From assembly GCA_025055015.1 (NCBI GenBank), contig JANWYQ010000057.1:1-36524 (forward strand): a stretch of DNA of 36,524 nt, in the 5' to 3' direction. The notes beneath the pieces were generated by a model, which worked only from the letters and a program-made list of their open reading frames with translations, did not search any database and had not been told where the DNA came from. This stretch comes from Caldilineales bacterium. Its GTDB lineage: Bacteria; Chloroflexota; Anaerolineae; JAAEKA01. This document shows, in pieces, positions 5,913 through 22,483 of this stretch (the first letter of the stretch is position 1; every line of letters begins with the position of its first letter). A program made the position numbers and the translations under genes.

Positions 5913-7472
5913 TCACGGCCGCTCACGGCCCGGCTCGTCGGGGGCCATGCCGGGAGGAGGTTGGCCCATGGCCGCGTGGGGGCTGCGGATGTTGTCGGGG
6001 ACGATCACGTCCTTCGGATCCATGAAGGGGATGGGGTCGCAACAGCCGCCCCAGCCGTCCCCACGCGTGTAGGGCAGGATGCGGATGCCAAAGTGTAGGT
6101 GCGGACCGCTGCTGTTGCCGCTGTTGCCGCTGGGGCCCAGCACGTCCCCGCGGCGCACCTTGGCCTCCTCCTTCACCGCCACGCTCTTCATGTGCGCGTA
6201 CAGCGACTCTCCCCACTCGTGCTTCAGCTTGACGAAGTAGCCGAAGCCGCGGGCCTCGTAGCCCACCTGTACCACCTCGCCGTCGTCGGTGGCCAGCACG
6301 TCGGTGCCGATCGGGGTGCCGAAGTCCACGCCGTTGTGCCCGCGCAGGGGCACGCCGTCGTAGCTGAACTGCTTGTAGAACTCCGGGCGGTCGCCGAAGA
6401 GCTGCGTCACCCGATGGGTGCCGGCAAAGGGCTTGCCCAGGCGGATCTTGCCCCTGAGCTGCACCGGCACCATGAACCGCTCCCCCTTGGCGCCCACCTC
6501 CGCCATCCAGCCTTGCACCGTCTGTCCGGCCACCGCGCCGCGCACCTGCCACCACGTGAGCTGGTCGGCTGCCTGCGGCCCGGCCACGATGGTCATGCTC
6601 CCGTCCGGCGGCAGCTTGACCACGATGTCCGTCTCCTCCTTGCCCACGTAGCCGGGCGAGCGTCGCACGTTCACCGGCTTGGTGTAGGCGTTGAAGATGG
6701 CATCGCCCAGGCGAAAGGTCCGGGCCGGGGCTGGCGTCGGCGTCTGCGGGGGCGGCGGCGCCGTGGCCGACAAGAGCGGCTTGCCGCTGGGCGTCGTCTC
6801 GGCCGCCCAGCCCTCGACGGCCCTGGCGGCCACCGTGTAGCGCACCCGCCACCAGGTGAGGCTGTCGGCCCCCCGCGGGCCGTCCACCACCGTCAGCGAG
6901 GCGCCGTAGGGCGCCTCGTCCAGGATGTCGCCCTCGTCCTTGTTGATGTAGCCAGGGGTGGTGCGGACGTTGAGGAAGGCGGCCGCATAGATCGTCTGGC
7001 CGATGCGGAACTTGCCCGTGGGCGGCTGAGCGCCTGGCGGCGGCAGCACGTCCAGCATCAGGTCGGGCCGGATGGCGCGCAGCACGACGCCGCCGTCGGC
7101 CGCGGTCTCGGCCGCCCAGCCCTCGTACTCGCGGCCGTCGTCGTAGCGACAGCGCAGCCGCCACCAGCGGGCGCCGGTCGCCTGTTGGGGGCCATCCAGC
7201 ACCGCTACCTCCCAGCAGGGCGGGACCAGCGTCACCACGCCCGTGGAGGCGCCGTCGGACCGGCGGCCGGGGCTGCGCTGCAGCGGCACTTCGTCCAAGG
7301 TCATGATGGAGGCGCCAGGGACCACTGCGTCCCCTGCGCTCGCAGTGCTCGCAGTGCTTGCAGCGCTCGCTACCCTCGCAACGGAGGCGCCGACCACTTC
7401 TCCCAAGGCGGCGGGGTGGGGTTGAGCAGTGCTGTCCGCAGGCTCGGCGACCAGTTTGCGCTTTCGGGGCAT
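5913..7472 (-). CDS. SH3-like repeat protein with M23 metallopeptidase domain
   Basis: A 519-aa predicted peptidoglycan endopeptidase. After an Ala/Ser/Thr-rich N-terminus come three bacterial-SH3-like units, two with the pattern NVRTTPGY or NVRRSPGY, a WW pair and GWAAE. These usually bind wall or glycan. The C-terminal domain is a LytM/M23 zinc peptidase, with ligands expected in GHNGVDFG (His, Asp) and GPHLHFG (HxH), plus YAHM. I see no signal peptide or membrane segment, which is odd for a wall enzyme; it may be exported in another way or have a misjudged start. No clear ribosome binding site precedes the ATG. The promoter at 7521-7549 gives a leader of about 42 nt. Divergent from nadE. 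Confidence 0.85.
   Translation of the reverse strand: MPRKRKLVAEPADSTAQPHPAALGEVVGASVARVASAASTASTASAGDAVVPGASIMTLDEVPLQRSPGRRSDGASTGVVTLVPPCWEVAVLDGPQQATGARWWRLRCRYDDGREYEGWAAETAADGGVVLRAIRPDLMLDVLPPPGAQPPTGKFRIGQTIYAAAFLNVRTTPGYINKDEGDILDEAPYGASLTVVDGPRGADSLTWWRVRYTVAARAVEGWAAETTPSGKPLLSATAPPPPQTPTPAPARTFRLGDAIFNAYTKPVNVRRSPGYVGKEETDIVVKLPPDGSMTIVAGPQAADQLTWWQVRGAVAGQTVQGWMAEVGAKGERFMVPVQLRGKIRLGKPFAGTHRVTQLFGDRPEFYKQFSYDGVPLRGHNGVDFGTPIGTDVLATDDGEVVQVGYEARGFGYFVKLKHEWGESLYAHMKSVAVKEEAKVRRGDVLGPSGNSGNSSGPHLHFGIRILPYTRGDGWGGCCDPIPFMDPKDVIVPDNIRSPHAAMGQPPPGMAPDEPGRERP
7338..7382. repeat. 9-bp microsatellite inside the M23 gene
   Basis: GCTCGCAGT is repeated in tandem about five times with increasing divergence (starts 7338, 7347, 7356, 7365, 7374). 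The period is a multiple of three, so length changes would only alter the Ala/Ser/Thr-rich N-terminal tract of the protein. Confidence 0.7.
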
Positions 7473-17863: not shown

Positions 17864-17898
17864 AAAAAGACTGGACCGGTCCTCAGGACCGGTCCAGT
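17864..17898 (-). terminator. First of two tandem terminators downstream of tRNA-Asp
   Basis: ACTGGACCGGTCC and GGACCGGTCCAGT form a 13-bp perfect stem with a 3-nt loop, followed on the minus strand by CTTTTT. It shares its outer arms (AGACTGG...CCAGT) with hairpins at 34539 and 34601. Confidence 0.9.
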
Positions 17899-17911
17899 TC
17901 GCTCGCTTCTT

Positions 17912-17988
17912 TGGCGGGGCCGACGGGGCTCGAACCCGCGATCTTCGGCTTGACAGGCCGATATGTTTACCGACTACACCACGGCCCC
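17912..17988 (-). tRNA. tRNA-Asp (anticodon GTC)
   Basis: Minus strand, 77 nt including an encoded CCA. Acceptor stem GGGGCCG/CGGCCCC with discriminator G; anticodon stem TCGGC/GCCGA with loop CTGTCAA, giving GTC at positions 34-36; T-arm GGGTTCGAGCCC. It is the only RNA gene found. It has its own sigma-70 promoter and two terminators. Confidence 0.97.
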
Positions 17989-18121: not shown

Positions 18122-18144
18122 GCTAGGACGCCACGGAGGCCATC

Positions 18145-21100
18145 ATGCTTCGTCCACTGCGCGACTCCCCATACATCTTTGGCTTGCACGACCCCGGCGG
18201 GGAGTACCTCATGCTCAACGCGGGCAAGCCGGGTTGGGTCCTGTTCACCGAAGCCCTAGGCGCCGATCCCAACGACCAGGGCAGCCGGGACTACACCCTC
18301 TGGTCCAACAACGGGCTGGGCGTCATGGTGCGGCTCAACCACGGCTACGAGCCCCAGGGTACCATCCCGGTCAGCAGCCGCTACGCCGACTTCGCCCAGC
18401 GCTGCGCCAACTTCGTTCGCAACAGCCGGGGCGCGCACATCTGGATCATCGGCAACGAGATGAACTTCGTGGTGGAGCGCCCCGCCCGCAACCTGCGAGC
18501 CGCACAGAGCGCGCCTAAGCCGCCGGCTGAACCCTCGGACGAGCCGCCTCCTTCCCCCCGCGAGCGCGCGGACCGCTTCAACGCCCTGCATCCCGACGCA
18601 CCGCCCGTCAAGGCCGCCCGCAGCACGGCCAACCGTGAGGTGATCACACCGCAGCTGTACGCGACCTGTTTTCGCCTGTGCCGCGAGGCCATCCGCCGCC
18701 AGCCTGGCCACGAGCAGGACCAGGTGCTGGTGGGCGCCGTGGCGCCGTGGAACAACCAGACGCAGTACGAGGGTAACCCGCTGGGCGACTGGGTGCAGTA
18801 CTTCGTGGACATCCTGACCCTCTTGGGGCCGGACGGGTGTGACGGCTTCACCCTGCACACCTACACCCACGGCGACAACCCGAACCTGATCACCGACCCG
18901 GCCAAGATGAACCCGCCCTTTGCCCACCGGCACTATCACTTCCTGGCCTATCGCGACTTCATGGAGGCGGTGCCGGCCAACATGCGCCACCTGCCCGCCT
19001 ACATCACCGAGACCGACCAGGACGTGGAGTGGCGCAACGAGAACACCGGCTGGGTGCAGCGGGCCTACGCCGAGATCAACTGGTGGAACAGCCAGCCGGG
19101 CAACCAGCAGATCCGCGCCCTGATCCTCTACCGCTGGCCCAAGCTGGACAAGTGGTACATTGACGGCAAGCAAGGGGTGATCGAGGACTTTCGCCAGGCC
19201 CTGAGGAACGACTACCGCTGGCGACCCGAGCCGGTGAAGCCGGCCTACCGCGTGGCCTGGCTGGAGGGCGGCGGCCTGAGAACCGCCGTCACCGGCGAGG
19301 TGGTCACCACGCGCTTCGTCCTGCGCAACGACGGCACTAAGACGTGGGCCAAAGGGGGACCGAACCCGGTGCGGATCGGCTTCCGCTGGGAGAGCGGCTC
19401 CGGGCAGCCGGTGTTGGTGCCCCCCGATCGCGACTTCCGCACACCGCTGCCCCAGGACGTCAAGCCCGGGGAGACGGTTACGGTGGAGAACGTGCGGGTG
19501 GCCGTGCCGGACCAGGCCGGCGCCCTGCGCCTGCGCTGGGACCTGGTGGAGGAGGGGATCACCTGGTTCCGAGACCGGGGCAGCCCGGAGCGGGTGGAGA
19601 CCGTGACCGTGCGGGCCGGGACGCCGCCGGAGGGCCTCCTGGTGCCGGAGACGGGAAAGCGGGTGAAGGGCCCCTTCCTGGAGTGGTATCAGCGCTACGG
19701 CGTGGAGGTGGCCGGCTATCCCATCACCGACCAGTACCGAGACCCGGCCACGGGGCTCAACACCCAGGTCTTCCAGCGGGTGATGCTGGAGGAGCACGAG
19801 CCGGGCAAGATCCGCCTGCGGCTGGCCGGCCAGGACCTGGTGCAGGCCCAGCAACGCCTGCAGGAGGCGGAGAAGGCCGCGGCCAGCCTGCGGGCCCAGA
19901 TCGCAGACCTGGAGGAGCGGCTGCGCCGGGCCGGGCAGGGCGGCGAGCCGACGCTGCGCATCCCGCGGCCGGCCATGGAGGACATCACGGCGAGCCTGCC
20001 GCGCGACCCGGCTGGGTTTAAGCAACGCACCCCCAACGCCATCCGCTACCTGGTGATCAACCACACCGGCGGCTCGCCCACCGTGCCGGTGGAGAAGATC
20101 GCCGAGTTCCACCGCCAGCGCGGCTACCCCGGCATCGCCTACCACTTCCTGGTGGACGGCCAGGGCGCCATCTTCCAGGTCAACCCCATCACCGAGACGG
20201 TCAGCGACCAGGGCTACCTGGGCGAGGGAGTGAACATCGCCATCGCCGGCAAGTTCGACGACGCGGTGCCCACCGACGCCCAGCTGGACGCGGCGGCGCG
20301 GCTGAGCGCCTGGCTGCTGCAGGAGCTGCGGCTGCCGCCGGAGGCCATCAAGGGGGTGTCGGAGTTCGTGGCCACCGGGTCGCCCGGCTGGCAGTGGCTG
20401 CGCGGCCAGCGCTACAAGGACCGCCTGCTCAAGAAGGTGGCCGAGGTGCAGCCGGCTCCGGTGGAGCCGGCCCCGACGCCGCCCGCGGACAGCGCCGAGC
20501 TGGCTCGCCTGCAGGCCGAGGTGGCCTCCCTGCGCAGCCAGCTGGCCGAGCGAGAGGCGCAGCTGAGCCAGCTGCGAGCCGAAGCGACGCGGCTGCAGGG
20601 CGAGGTCCAAACGCGCGACCAGCGCATTGCGGCGCTGACGTCGCAGGTGACCCGCATCCAGGGGGAGGTGGCGCGACTGCAGCGCGACGTGCAGGCGCGC
20701 GACCAGCGCATCGCTGACCTCACCGAGCAGGCCGGCCGCCTGAGCCAACAGGCCGCGGCGCAGCAAGCGGAGATCGTCCGCCTCCAGGAGGCCTTGGCGC
20801 GGCAAGGGGCCGGCTCGGGCCGGACTGTCGTCCAGCCTGCCATCTTCGACGTGGTTGATGCGCTGCCCAAGCACCCCACCTTGCGCTACAGCCAGCGCCA
20901 GCGCAGCCAGATCACCCACATTGCCATCCACCACAGCGCCACGCCGGCTAACATCGCCATCGAGCGGGTGGCGCAGTATCACATCAGCGCGGACCCCAGC
21001 CGCAACAAGGAGCCGTGGCCCGGCATCGGCTACCACTTCTACGTCAAGCCCGACGGCGCCATCTACCTGACCAACCGGCTGGAGACCGTGGCCTACCACG

Positions 21101-21705
21101 TCTACGCCAACAACGAGAGGGCCATCGGCATCTGCGTCAGCGGCGATTTCACCCGCGCCGCGCCTACGGTGGAGCAGATCAACAGCACGGCGCACCTGGT
21201 GGCCTGGCTGATGCAGGAGCTCAACATCCCGGAGCAGAACGTGCTGGGCCACCGGGAGTTCCCGCAGAACGACACCACCTGCCCCGGCGCGCAGTGGCTG
21301 GAGGGCCGCCAGTGGCGCACCACGCTGCTGGAGACCGTGCGCGCGTTTCGCAGCGGCCGAGGGCCCGGCGTCTGGCCCAAGACCATCACCCACTACGTTC
21401 TCTTCTGGCAGCGGCCCGACGCCTGGGCCCGTGAGGACTGGCTGTCGGCCGAGAAGTACATCGGGCGCTTCCGGCCTACCGCCGGCTTTTCCCTGGACGA
21501 CGCGCGCAACGCCGAGTTCGTCACCATCGTCGGCGGAGAGGCCGGCGTCTCGCGCGAGGCCGAGCAGATGCTGCGAGCGGCCGGCTGCAAGGTGGAGCGC
21601 TTGGCCGGGGTGGACTACGCCGACACCAAGCGCATGCTGGACACCTTGGCCGACACGGGGCGTCGCTTCCAGAGCTTTGCCGTGGGGGAGGGCCTCGATG
21701 TTTGA
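18145..21705 (+). CDS. Multidomain N-acetylmuramoyl-L-alanine amidase with GH-like and NBR1-Ig-like domains
   Basis: An 1186-aa modular protein. Residues 1-345 resemble a clan-A glycoside hydrolase barrel, with candidate catalytic Glu105 (IIGNEMN) and Glu289 (YITETDQ). About 368-490 is an NBR1-Ig-like domain (FVLRNDGTKTWAKGG). About 495-575 is an LGFP-like segment (GPFLEWYQRYGVEVAGYPI). A coiled coil follows, then amidase domain 1 (about 615-775), a longer coiled coil (783-890), amidase domain 2 (about 905-1070) and an unrecognised C-terminal module (1075-1186). Domain 2 has the zinc set His929 (HHSAT), His1036 (GHREF) and Cys1046 (TCPG). Domain 1 has Asn639, Val738 and Ser746 at those places and should be inactive. 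No signal peptide is visible. It overlaps scpA by 8 nt. Confidence 0.85.
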   Translation: MLRPLRDSPYIFGLHDPGGEYLMLNAGKPGWVLFTEALGADPNDQGSRDYTLWSNNGLGVMVRLNHGYEPQGTIPVSSRYADFAQRCANFVRNSRGAHIWIIGNEMNFVVERPARNLRAAQSAPKPPAEPSDEPPPSPRERADRFNALHPDAPPVKAARSTANREVITPQLYATCFRLCREAIRRQPGHEQDQVLVGAVAPWNNQTQYEGNPLGDWVQYFVDILTLLGPDGCDGFTLHTYTHGDNPNLITDPAKMNPPFAHRHYHFLAYRDFMEAVPANMRHLPAYITETDQDVEWRNENTGWVQRAYAEINWWNSQPGNQQIRALILYRWPKLDKWYIDGKQGVIEDFRQALRNDYRWRPEPVKPAYRVAWLEGGGLRTAVTGEVVTTRFVLRNDGTKTWAKGGPNPVRIGFRWESGSGQPVLVPPDRDFRTPLPQDVKPGETVTVENVRVAVPDQAGALRLRWDLVEEGITWFRDRGSPERVETVTVRAGTPPEGLLVPETGKRVKGPFLEWYQRYGVEVAGYPITDQYRDPATGLNTQVFQRVMLEEHEPGKIRLRLAGQDLVQAQQRLQEAEKAAASLRAQIADLEERLRRAGQGGEPTLRIPRPAMEDITASLPRDPAGFKQRTPNAIRYLVINHTGGSPTVPVEKIAEFHRQRGYPGIAYHFLVDGQGAIFQVNPITETVSDQGYLGEGVNIAIAGKFDDAVPTDAQLDAAARLSAWLLQELRLPPEAIKGVSEFVATGSPGWQWLRGQRYKDRLLKKVAEVQPAPVEPAPTPPADSAELARLQAEVASLRSQLAEREAQLSQLRAEATRLQGEVQTRDQRIAALTSQVTRIQGEVARLQRDVQARDQRIADLTEQAGRLSQQAAAQQAEIVRLQEALARQGAGSGRTVVQPAIFDVVDALPKHPTLRYSQRQRSQITHIAIHHSATPANIAIERVAQYHISADPSRNKEPWPGIGYHFYVKPDGAIYLTNRLETVAYHVYANNERAIGICVSGDFTRAAPTVEQINSTAHLVAWLMQELNIPEQNVLGHREFPQNDTTCPGAQWLEGRQWRTTLLETVRAFRSGRGPGVWPKTITHYVLFWQRPDAWAREDWLSAEKYIGRFRPTAGFSLDDARNAEFVTIVGGEAGVSREAEQMLRAAGCKVERLAGVDYADTKRMLDTLADTGRRFQSFAVGEGLDV

Positions 21706-22483
21706 TCAGCCGGCCGACCGGGCGTACCAGGTGCGGCTGCCGCTGTTCGAGGGGCCGCTGGACCTGCTGTTGCACTTGATCGAACGCCGAGAACTCGACA
21801 TAACTGCAATCTCTCTGGCCAGCGTGGCCGACCAGTTCGTGGCCTACCTGGAGACCATGCGCGAGCGCGGGGTGCAGGCGCGGGTCATTGCGGACTTCCT
21901 GGTGGTGGCGGCGCGCCTGTTGGTGATCAAGAGCCGCTTGTTGTTGCCGCAGCCGCCGCCTCTGGAGGAGGGGGAGGAGGACCCCGGGGAGGCGTTGGTA
22001 AGACGTCTGCAGGAGTACAAGCGCTTCAAGCGGGCGGCCGAGTGGCTGAAGGCGCGGCAGGAGGCAGGGCTGCGCAGCTATGTGCGGGTGGCGCCGCCTG
22101 TGGTGGGCGAGCCCAAGCTGGACCCCACCGGCCTGTCGGTGGACGCGCTGATCGCTGCCCTGCGCCAGCTCACCCTGGAGGAGCCAGACCTCCCGTCGGC
22201 CGATCCGCTGGTGCCTCCCCGCAAGATCACCGTCCAGGAGAAGATCGAGCGCATCGAGGCCTTGTTGAGCGACGGCCGGCCGGTCCCCTTTGCGGAGGTA
22301 GTCAACGGCGGCGGCTCGCGGCTGGAGGTGGTGGTGAGCCTGTGGGCTGTTCTGGAGATGATCAAGCGAGGGCGTCTGCAGGCCATACAACGGGAGCTCT
22401 TCGGCGAGATCACCCTGCTGCCCGTGCCGGGCGCCGAGGCGTCGAAGCCTGCCGTGGCGGTCGGCGAGCAAGAGATCGTCTGA
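21698..22483 (+). CDS. scpA: Segregation and condensation protein A
   Basis: Kleisin subunit of the bacterial SMC-ScpAB condensin, acting in chromosome organisation and segregation. At 261 aa it is typical. The N-terminal SMC-binding helices ([39 protein letters not shown]) and the C-terminal winged-helix region ([23 protein letters not shown]) are clear. The ATG at 21698 lies inside the 3' end of the amidase gene, with GGGAGGG upstream, so translation is probably coupled. The usual partner scpB is not next to it; a promoter for prfA follows instead. Confidence 0.95.

Follow-up and report, generated by a model that had tools for sequence, protein, structure and literature searches.

A predicted leaderless wall hydrolase encoded beside scpA in Anaerolineae combines a degenerate and an intact amidase domain

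Non-catalytic PGRPs such as Drosophila PGRP-SA, -LC and -LF are animal immune receptors with the T7-lysozyme fold in which the zinc ligands have been lost, the Cys being replaced by Ser in PGRP-SA. The PGRP-type endolysins Ts2631, Ph2119, LysC of C. intestinale and T7 lysozyme are small, single-domain proteins with a characteristic set of His, Tyr, His, Thr/Lys and Cys residues. The CWB2 proteins of Clostridioides (Cwp6, Cwp8 and SlpA), among which Cwp6 also bears an amidase annotation, carry three CWB2 repeats. In the staphylococcal endolysins LysSA12 and LysSA97, an amidase domain that is inactive on the intact wall aids binding (PMC6024855), and CwlM of mycobacteria, a leaderless amidase relative of the AmiA/LytC (Amidase_3) type with altered zinc residues, acts in the cytoplasm as a regulator of MurA (PMC4946905).

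Gene X, which lies in a 36,524-nucleotide stretch of DNA from a Caldilineales bacterium (the whole stretch analysed, referred to as the window), shares features with each of these systems and differs from all of them. Its degenerate amidase domain resembles the non-catalytic PGRPs but forms part of a bacterial enzyme, with a live copy next to it, and any binding to peptidoglycan is putative. Its live domain has the endolysin residue set, whereas the endolysins lack a dead copy, a barrel and a CWB2-like domain; LysSA12 and LysSA97 are alike in having an amidase domain that does not act on the intact wall but have other partner domains and no tandem live amidase. CwlM similarly lacks a signal peptide but has no second live domain, and gene X contains only Amidase_2 domains and no Amidase_3 fold. 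The CWB2 repeat is matched in gene X once and in part, by the second half of the C-terminal domain. As a bacterial counterpart of the non-catalytic PGRPs inside a predicted active enzyme, this family would provide dozens of natural sequences with a clean contrast between live and dead copies.

Domain layout of gene X

Re-derivation of the open reading frame and its translation reproduced the coordinates and residue numbers that an earlier sequence-only reading had given for 18145-21705 (Table 1). That reading is extended here by the scpA linkage, the missing signal peptide, the CWB2-like C-terminus and the recurrence of the barrel with wall-lytic domains and in viral contigs. From the N- to the C-terminus, sequence and structural model give the order clan-A-like barrel, Ig-like domain, LGFP-like repeat, dead Amidase_2 domain, helical spacer, live Amidase_2 domain and CWB2-like C-terminus. 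Taken as a whole, gene X is best explained as encoding a modular peptidoglycan hydrolase of Anaerolineae, an explanation to which we give an even chance of being right.

Table 1 Features of gene X and associated genes in the window
Feature	Residues	Position	Strand	Basis
Gene X, whole multidomain wall hydrolase, leaderless	1186 aa	18145..21705	+	ORF, domain searches
Shine-Dalgarno-like GGAGG, few nt 5' of gene X ATG		18136..18140	+	Sequence
Clan-A-like glycoside hydrolase barrel	8-366	18166..19242	+	AF2, Foldseek, conservation
Acid/base candidate, in N104-E105	E105	18457-18459	+	Model, alignment
Nucleophile candidate	E289	19009-19011	+	Model, alignment
Ig-like domain, N_BRCA1_IG type	384-472	19294..19560	+	Pfam E = 2e-4, under curated cut-off
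Short LGFP-like repeat	about 499-538	19639..19758	+	Own profile; in many relatives
Degenerate Amidase_2 domain	606-765	19960..20439	+	Pfam, AF2, Foldseek, ligand table
Zinc-ligand column, degenerate domain	N639	20059-20061	+	Ligand table
Zinc-ligand column, degenerate domain	V738	20356-20358	+	Ligand table
Zinc-ligand column, degenerate domain	S746	20380-20382	+	Ligand table
Long helical, coiled-coil-like spacer	783-887	20491..20805	+	Matches solely to coiled-coil families
Intact Amidase_2 domain (H929, Y963, H985, H1036, T1044, C1046)	897-1066	20833..21342	+	Pfam, alignments
C-terminal domain, second half like cell-wall-binding CWB2 repeat	1079-1176	21379..21672	+	PDB profile search
scpA (kleisin of SMC-ScpAB)		21698..22483	+	NCBIfam ScpA 4.8e-41, under that model's cut-off; sequence
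M23 endopeptidase without obvious signal peptide, possible partner		5913..7472	-	Like C-terminal half of GH-M23 protein

The N-terminal region had been read as a GH-like barrel with two well-placed glutamates, and the AF2 prediction bears this out with eight strands (pLDDT 91.4, pTM 0.90), in which E105, as part of an Asn-Glu pair, directly follows strand 4 and E289 belongs to strand 7, close to where that strand ends. N104, E105 and E289 are each conserved in at least 90% of 39 relatives, so that predicted structure and alignment together display the marks of clan A: a (beta/alpha)8 fold, Asn-Glu after strand 4 and Glu at the end of strand 7. The barrel looks like a catalytically competent glycoside hydrolase in the model. 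No named GH family emerged for the window copy from Pfam or from PDB sequence searches, and Foldseek returned GH5/26/39/44/128-type barrels at a TM of about 0.5; a TM of this order to several families supports the fold and the likely clan, not a family. A barrel profile run over 251 genomes of the phylum matched in six, all of the same class, and the barrel also occurs in other proteins with M23, GH25, LysM, SH3 or Amidase_2 domains, making it a glycosidase-like family without a Pfam name that recurs in wall-lytic proteins. In five IMG/VR loci (L206-L210) the barrel stands alone or is joined to M23, with a primase or a weak portal-protein match close by; these are possible endolysins, on contigs that could be prophage or host. 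A phage origin was sought among 50,697 annotated phage records and not adopted, the barrel having no match there.

Between the barrel and the amidases, the N_BRCA1_IG match rises above the curated cut-off in one relative, and the following repeat, which has no library match, is one that we call LGFP-like. The two amidase domains had been described as joined by coiled coils; the long coiled-coil-like stretch is that at 783-887, the length of which differs among relatives, and the first helical linker (about 541-600) is short. The C-terminal domain matches Cwp8 (3e-11) and SlpA-type S-layer chains (1.5e-9) over about 40 positions in a profile search of the PDB. No Pfam family, CWB included, matches it, and in place of three tandem CWB2 repeats there is a single domain of about 100 residues.

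Degenerate and intact amidase domains

Both amidase domains proposed from the sequence are recognized by Pfam as Amidase_2 (whole-protein E = 4.7e-39), scoring 55.8 and 87.2 bits, respectively, against a curated cut-off of 26 in the genome-wide search. When both were aligned with relatives and T7 lysozyme, their ligand columns paired as N639/H929, V738/H1036 and S746/C1046, and the catalytic Tyr column held Y666/Y963 and the Lys/Thr column T744/T1044. The T7 lysozyme row, numbered one above the usual count because the first Met was included, was used as a yardstick only. It is dispensable, since the relatives and the published residues of Ts2631 and PGRP-LB lead to the same assignment. The second domain, for which intact zinc ligands had been claimed, indeed retains the complete zinc-amidase set, including the catalytic-column residues Y963 and T1044, and from its sequence is most probably an active amidase.

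The first domain had been called a pseudo-enzyme with all three zinc positions replaced, and this description agrees with the alignment and the predicted structure. AF2 models it confidently (pLDDT 96.4) as a PGRP/T7-lysozyme fold, and the best Foldseek matches are LysC (6srt, the top match), PGRP-SA (1sxr) and Ts2631 (6fhg). It therefore has the Amidase_2/PGRP fold without the zinc ligands, and like the non-catalytic PGRPs it has lost these ligands with a Cys-to-Ser change; judged by its residues, it is almost certainly no zinc amidase. Single changes in Ts2631 leave residual activity (17% for H30N, 3% for H131N, 12% for C139S; PMC4573324), and PGRP-LB C160S, which lacks zinc, retains peptidoglycan binding while its activity is reduced rather than abolished, in a substrate-dependent manner (PMC8124813). 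PGRPs without the amidase residues typically have Ser at the zinc-Cys position; in PGRP-SA this residue, Ser158, is important in contacts with the ligand, namely for binding lysine-type peptidoglycan, and for L,D-carboxypeptidase activity (PMC515366). By analogy with these data, the triple change in the window is very likely inactivating and binding is plausible; the chances that the dead domain binds peptidoglycan seem to us evenly balanced, while a role in either peptidoglycan binding or regulation, modelled on the non-catalytic PGRPs, is probable. Several groove residues of live copies (W958, G962, H985 and N990) are altered in the dead copies, which retain the fold residues and Ser-Pro-Gly; these groove changes may mean that the ligand differs or that the role is one of protein contact.

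The sequence-only reading knew of no described protein with this domain order. Literature searches likewise found no paper on it, but the architecture is common in Anaerolineae, mostly with two dead copies and one live copy, and cannot count as a novelty of this genome. Matches were found in 54 of 60 related genomes. Scanning genome contigs yielded 76 loci, with titles of Chloroflexota, Anaerolineae or Caldilineae type (two only 'bacterium'), and the family is carried by contigs labelled as a MAG of Litorilinea aerophila. The usual order is barrel, Ig-like, LGFP-like, one to three amidases and C-terminal domain. We assembled 76 proteins of the class Anaerolineae with at least two amidase domains after removal of near-identical terminal domains; 53 have three copies and 23 have two. 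The terminal copy is intact in 73 (71 with the pattern HYHTC and one each with HCHTC and HFHTC), and the three others are L040, L136 (frame break) and L152 (contig end), the last two being gene pieces. L040 (1285-4158, minus strand, in relative G055) has two degenerate amidases and no intact one, with Asn, Tyr and Ser at the ligand positions in both. The dead pattern recurs in all 129 non-terminal copies, and is thus not due to chance: all three ligands are missing in 104 and two in 25. At the first ligand position these copies have N (69), H (25), S (17) or C (14), at the second V (44), L (29), M (18), A (18) or I (9), and at the third Ser in 123; the Tyr is retained in 96.

The dead copies appear to be old. 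On a tree of 71 domains, the dead and live labels require two changes, and, with 12 viral amidases as outgroup, 34 core dead copies fall on one side of a branch with support of 89/97, a value under the starred-branch threshold of the tree tool. A few dead copies (in G007 and G017) are interspersed with the live copies, which suggests independent losses. The median dN/dS of close pairs was 0.09 and 0.054 for the dead copies, 0.082 for the live copy and 0.089 for the barrel, simple Nei-Gojobori values that, with much synonymous change and pairs sharing branches, indicate an order of magnitude only; the slowest-evolving dead copy is the one adjoining the live copy. By this rough estimate the core dead copies are under purifying selection like the live ones. 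The grouping on one branch, the low dN/dS and the wide retention together mark the dead copy as an ancient non-catalytic module, and, as far as sequences can tell, as an old lineage without a zinc site that has been preserved by selection and is no recent accident. In G001 and G003, of the window's own family, an X-like gene beside scpA has a live amidase and no dead copy, so the dead copy is dispensable there, with the reservation that a contig end cuts the G003 gene. The window's genome also encodes a paralog pair (L036, G000:C133:1822-6958), in which a 1033-aa protein with GH, dead and live amidase domains overlaps a 691-aa gene for a lone degenerate amidase; in this subgroup the first His is kept, Arg occupies the second ligand position and scpA is not adjacent.

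Missing signal peptide and linkage to scpA

Hydropathy and inspection of the upstream frame gave no signal peptide at the N-terminus of the gene X protein. The peak 15-residue hydropathy in its first 70 residues is 0.63, versus 2.8 to 3.3 for three secreted proteins of the window (a 5'-nucleotidase and two LysM proteins). An alternative upstream start with a signal peptide was considered and rejected: an in-frame stop lies just 5' of the six codons preceding the ATG, so that a signal peptide cannot fit there. Without one, the protein cannot reach the wall via Sec or Tat. Among 74 GH-plus-amidase relatives, the upstream stop is at most 16 residues from the barrel in 39, and in the others the open frame is longer, often with both a start codon and a ribosome-site-like stretch near the barrel. 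A contractile injection system was discarded as export route, its sheath gene (PF04984) occurring in 20 of 60 relatives without tracking the gene X family. The window's own genome does have contractile sheath genes (G000:C178:19284-23190), with no link to gene X seen.

The scpA ATG (start at 21698) overlaps the 3' end of gene X (TGA at 21703-21705) by 8 nt. Among members with 400 or more bases of downstream sequence, scpA is the next gene in the same orientation in 49 of 51 with three amidases, 5 of 14 with two and 11 of 17 with one, counts that are not independent as some loci were fetched twice and many come from close Caldilineaceae. The nine two-amidase members away from scpA include the own-genome paralog. 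The pairing occurs in 13 families of the class, and in class genomes without an scpA-linked gene X our own profiles found no family member in the 1.5 kb before scpA. Literature searches found no report of a wall hydrolase paired with scpA; an scpA-linked lipid-modifying family (PMC12419801) proved to be a different gene. A wall hydrolase gene would be stably linked to scpA in a phylum with a little-studied envelope and division. In several Caldilineae relatives, a barrel-M23 protein is encoded directly upstream of gene X, and the M23 protein of the window shares 42-51% identity over two stretches with the C-terminal half of a Caldilineae protein of this type.

Proposed function and alternatives

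We propose a model whereby the barrel glycosidase would cleave the glycan strand or some other glycan of the envelope, the live terminal amidase would cut MurNAc-L-Ala, and the dead copy (two in most relatives) would cut nothing and instead hold or read wall peptides like the non-catalytic PGRPs, thereby positioning or restraining the live domain. Production would be in step with chromosome segregation and use would fall at cell separation or lysis, as the missing signal peptide and the scpA overlap together suggest; we put forward such a cell-cycle-linked use only tentatively. Bolder still, and in our view improbable, is a version in which the leaderless hydrolase is co-translated with ScpA, the pseudo-amidases are wall sensors, septal splitting is tied to segregation and export follows an undescribed route; if true, septal wall splitting in Anaerolineae would be coupled to chromosome segregation.

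Several alternatives concern the dead domain itself. It could be mainly a regulator that docks onto the live amidase or onto a partner and holds the enzyme inactive pending a signal, with no peptidoglycan binding of its own. The divergent groove on a preserved fold and the slow evolution of the copy beside the live one are consistent with this, as are EnvC and CwlM, inactive relatives of wall enzymes that act as pure regulators (PMC4946905); the long spacers of variable length between the domains argue against tight packing, and we consider this reading somewhat unlikely. A different activity of the domain, for instance the L,D-carboxypeptidase reported in PGRP-SA, is very improbable, since the Ser shared by nearly all non-terminal copies would need the partner of the Ser158-His42 pair (PMC515366), and that His is gone in 104 of the 129 copies, the window copy having Asn there. 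Simple decay of a functionless domain, to which its absence beside scpA in some close relatives might point, can be almost discounted: dN/dS far below 1, the conserved Ser-Pro-Gly and fold residues and retention in dozens of genomes rule out a recent decay.

Others concern the place of action. A cytoplasmic protein acting on recycled muropeptides or controlling wall synthesis, like the enzyme AmpD or the regulator CwlM, would explain the lack of a signal peptide in the window copy and the short space before the barrel in 39 relatives, and CwlM is a precedent for a leaderless cytoplasmic amidase homologue (PMC4946905). We nevertheless think it unlikely, as CWB2-like domains are known from surface proteins and the barrel recurs with M23, GH25 and LysM domains, which act on the assembled wall. 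Signal peptides are absent from many endolysins, and gene X could accordingly be a domesticated phage-type endolysin that accumulates without a leader and acts once the membrane is breached, a reading that fits the barrel-bearing IMG/VR contigs; the empty search of annotated phages leaves these contigs as possible prophage or host, a stable link to the housekeeping gene scpA across so many families would be odd for a lysis gene, and we hold this origin to be doubtful.

Two side observations concern the surroundings of the gene. The segment separating gene X from pyruvate:ferredoxin oxidoreductase holds a tRNA-Asp gene (17870-17988, minus strand), which has a good terminator-like hairpin (17870-17898). 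Short opposite-strand ORFs, identified solely by a VanZ-like motif, lie some hundreds of bases beyond the downstream end of the gene X-scpA pair in L099, L106, L107, L111, L116, L119, L135 and L139.
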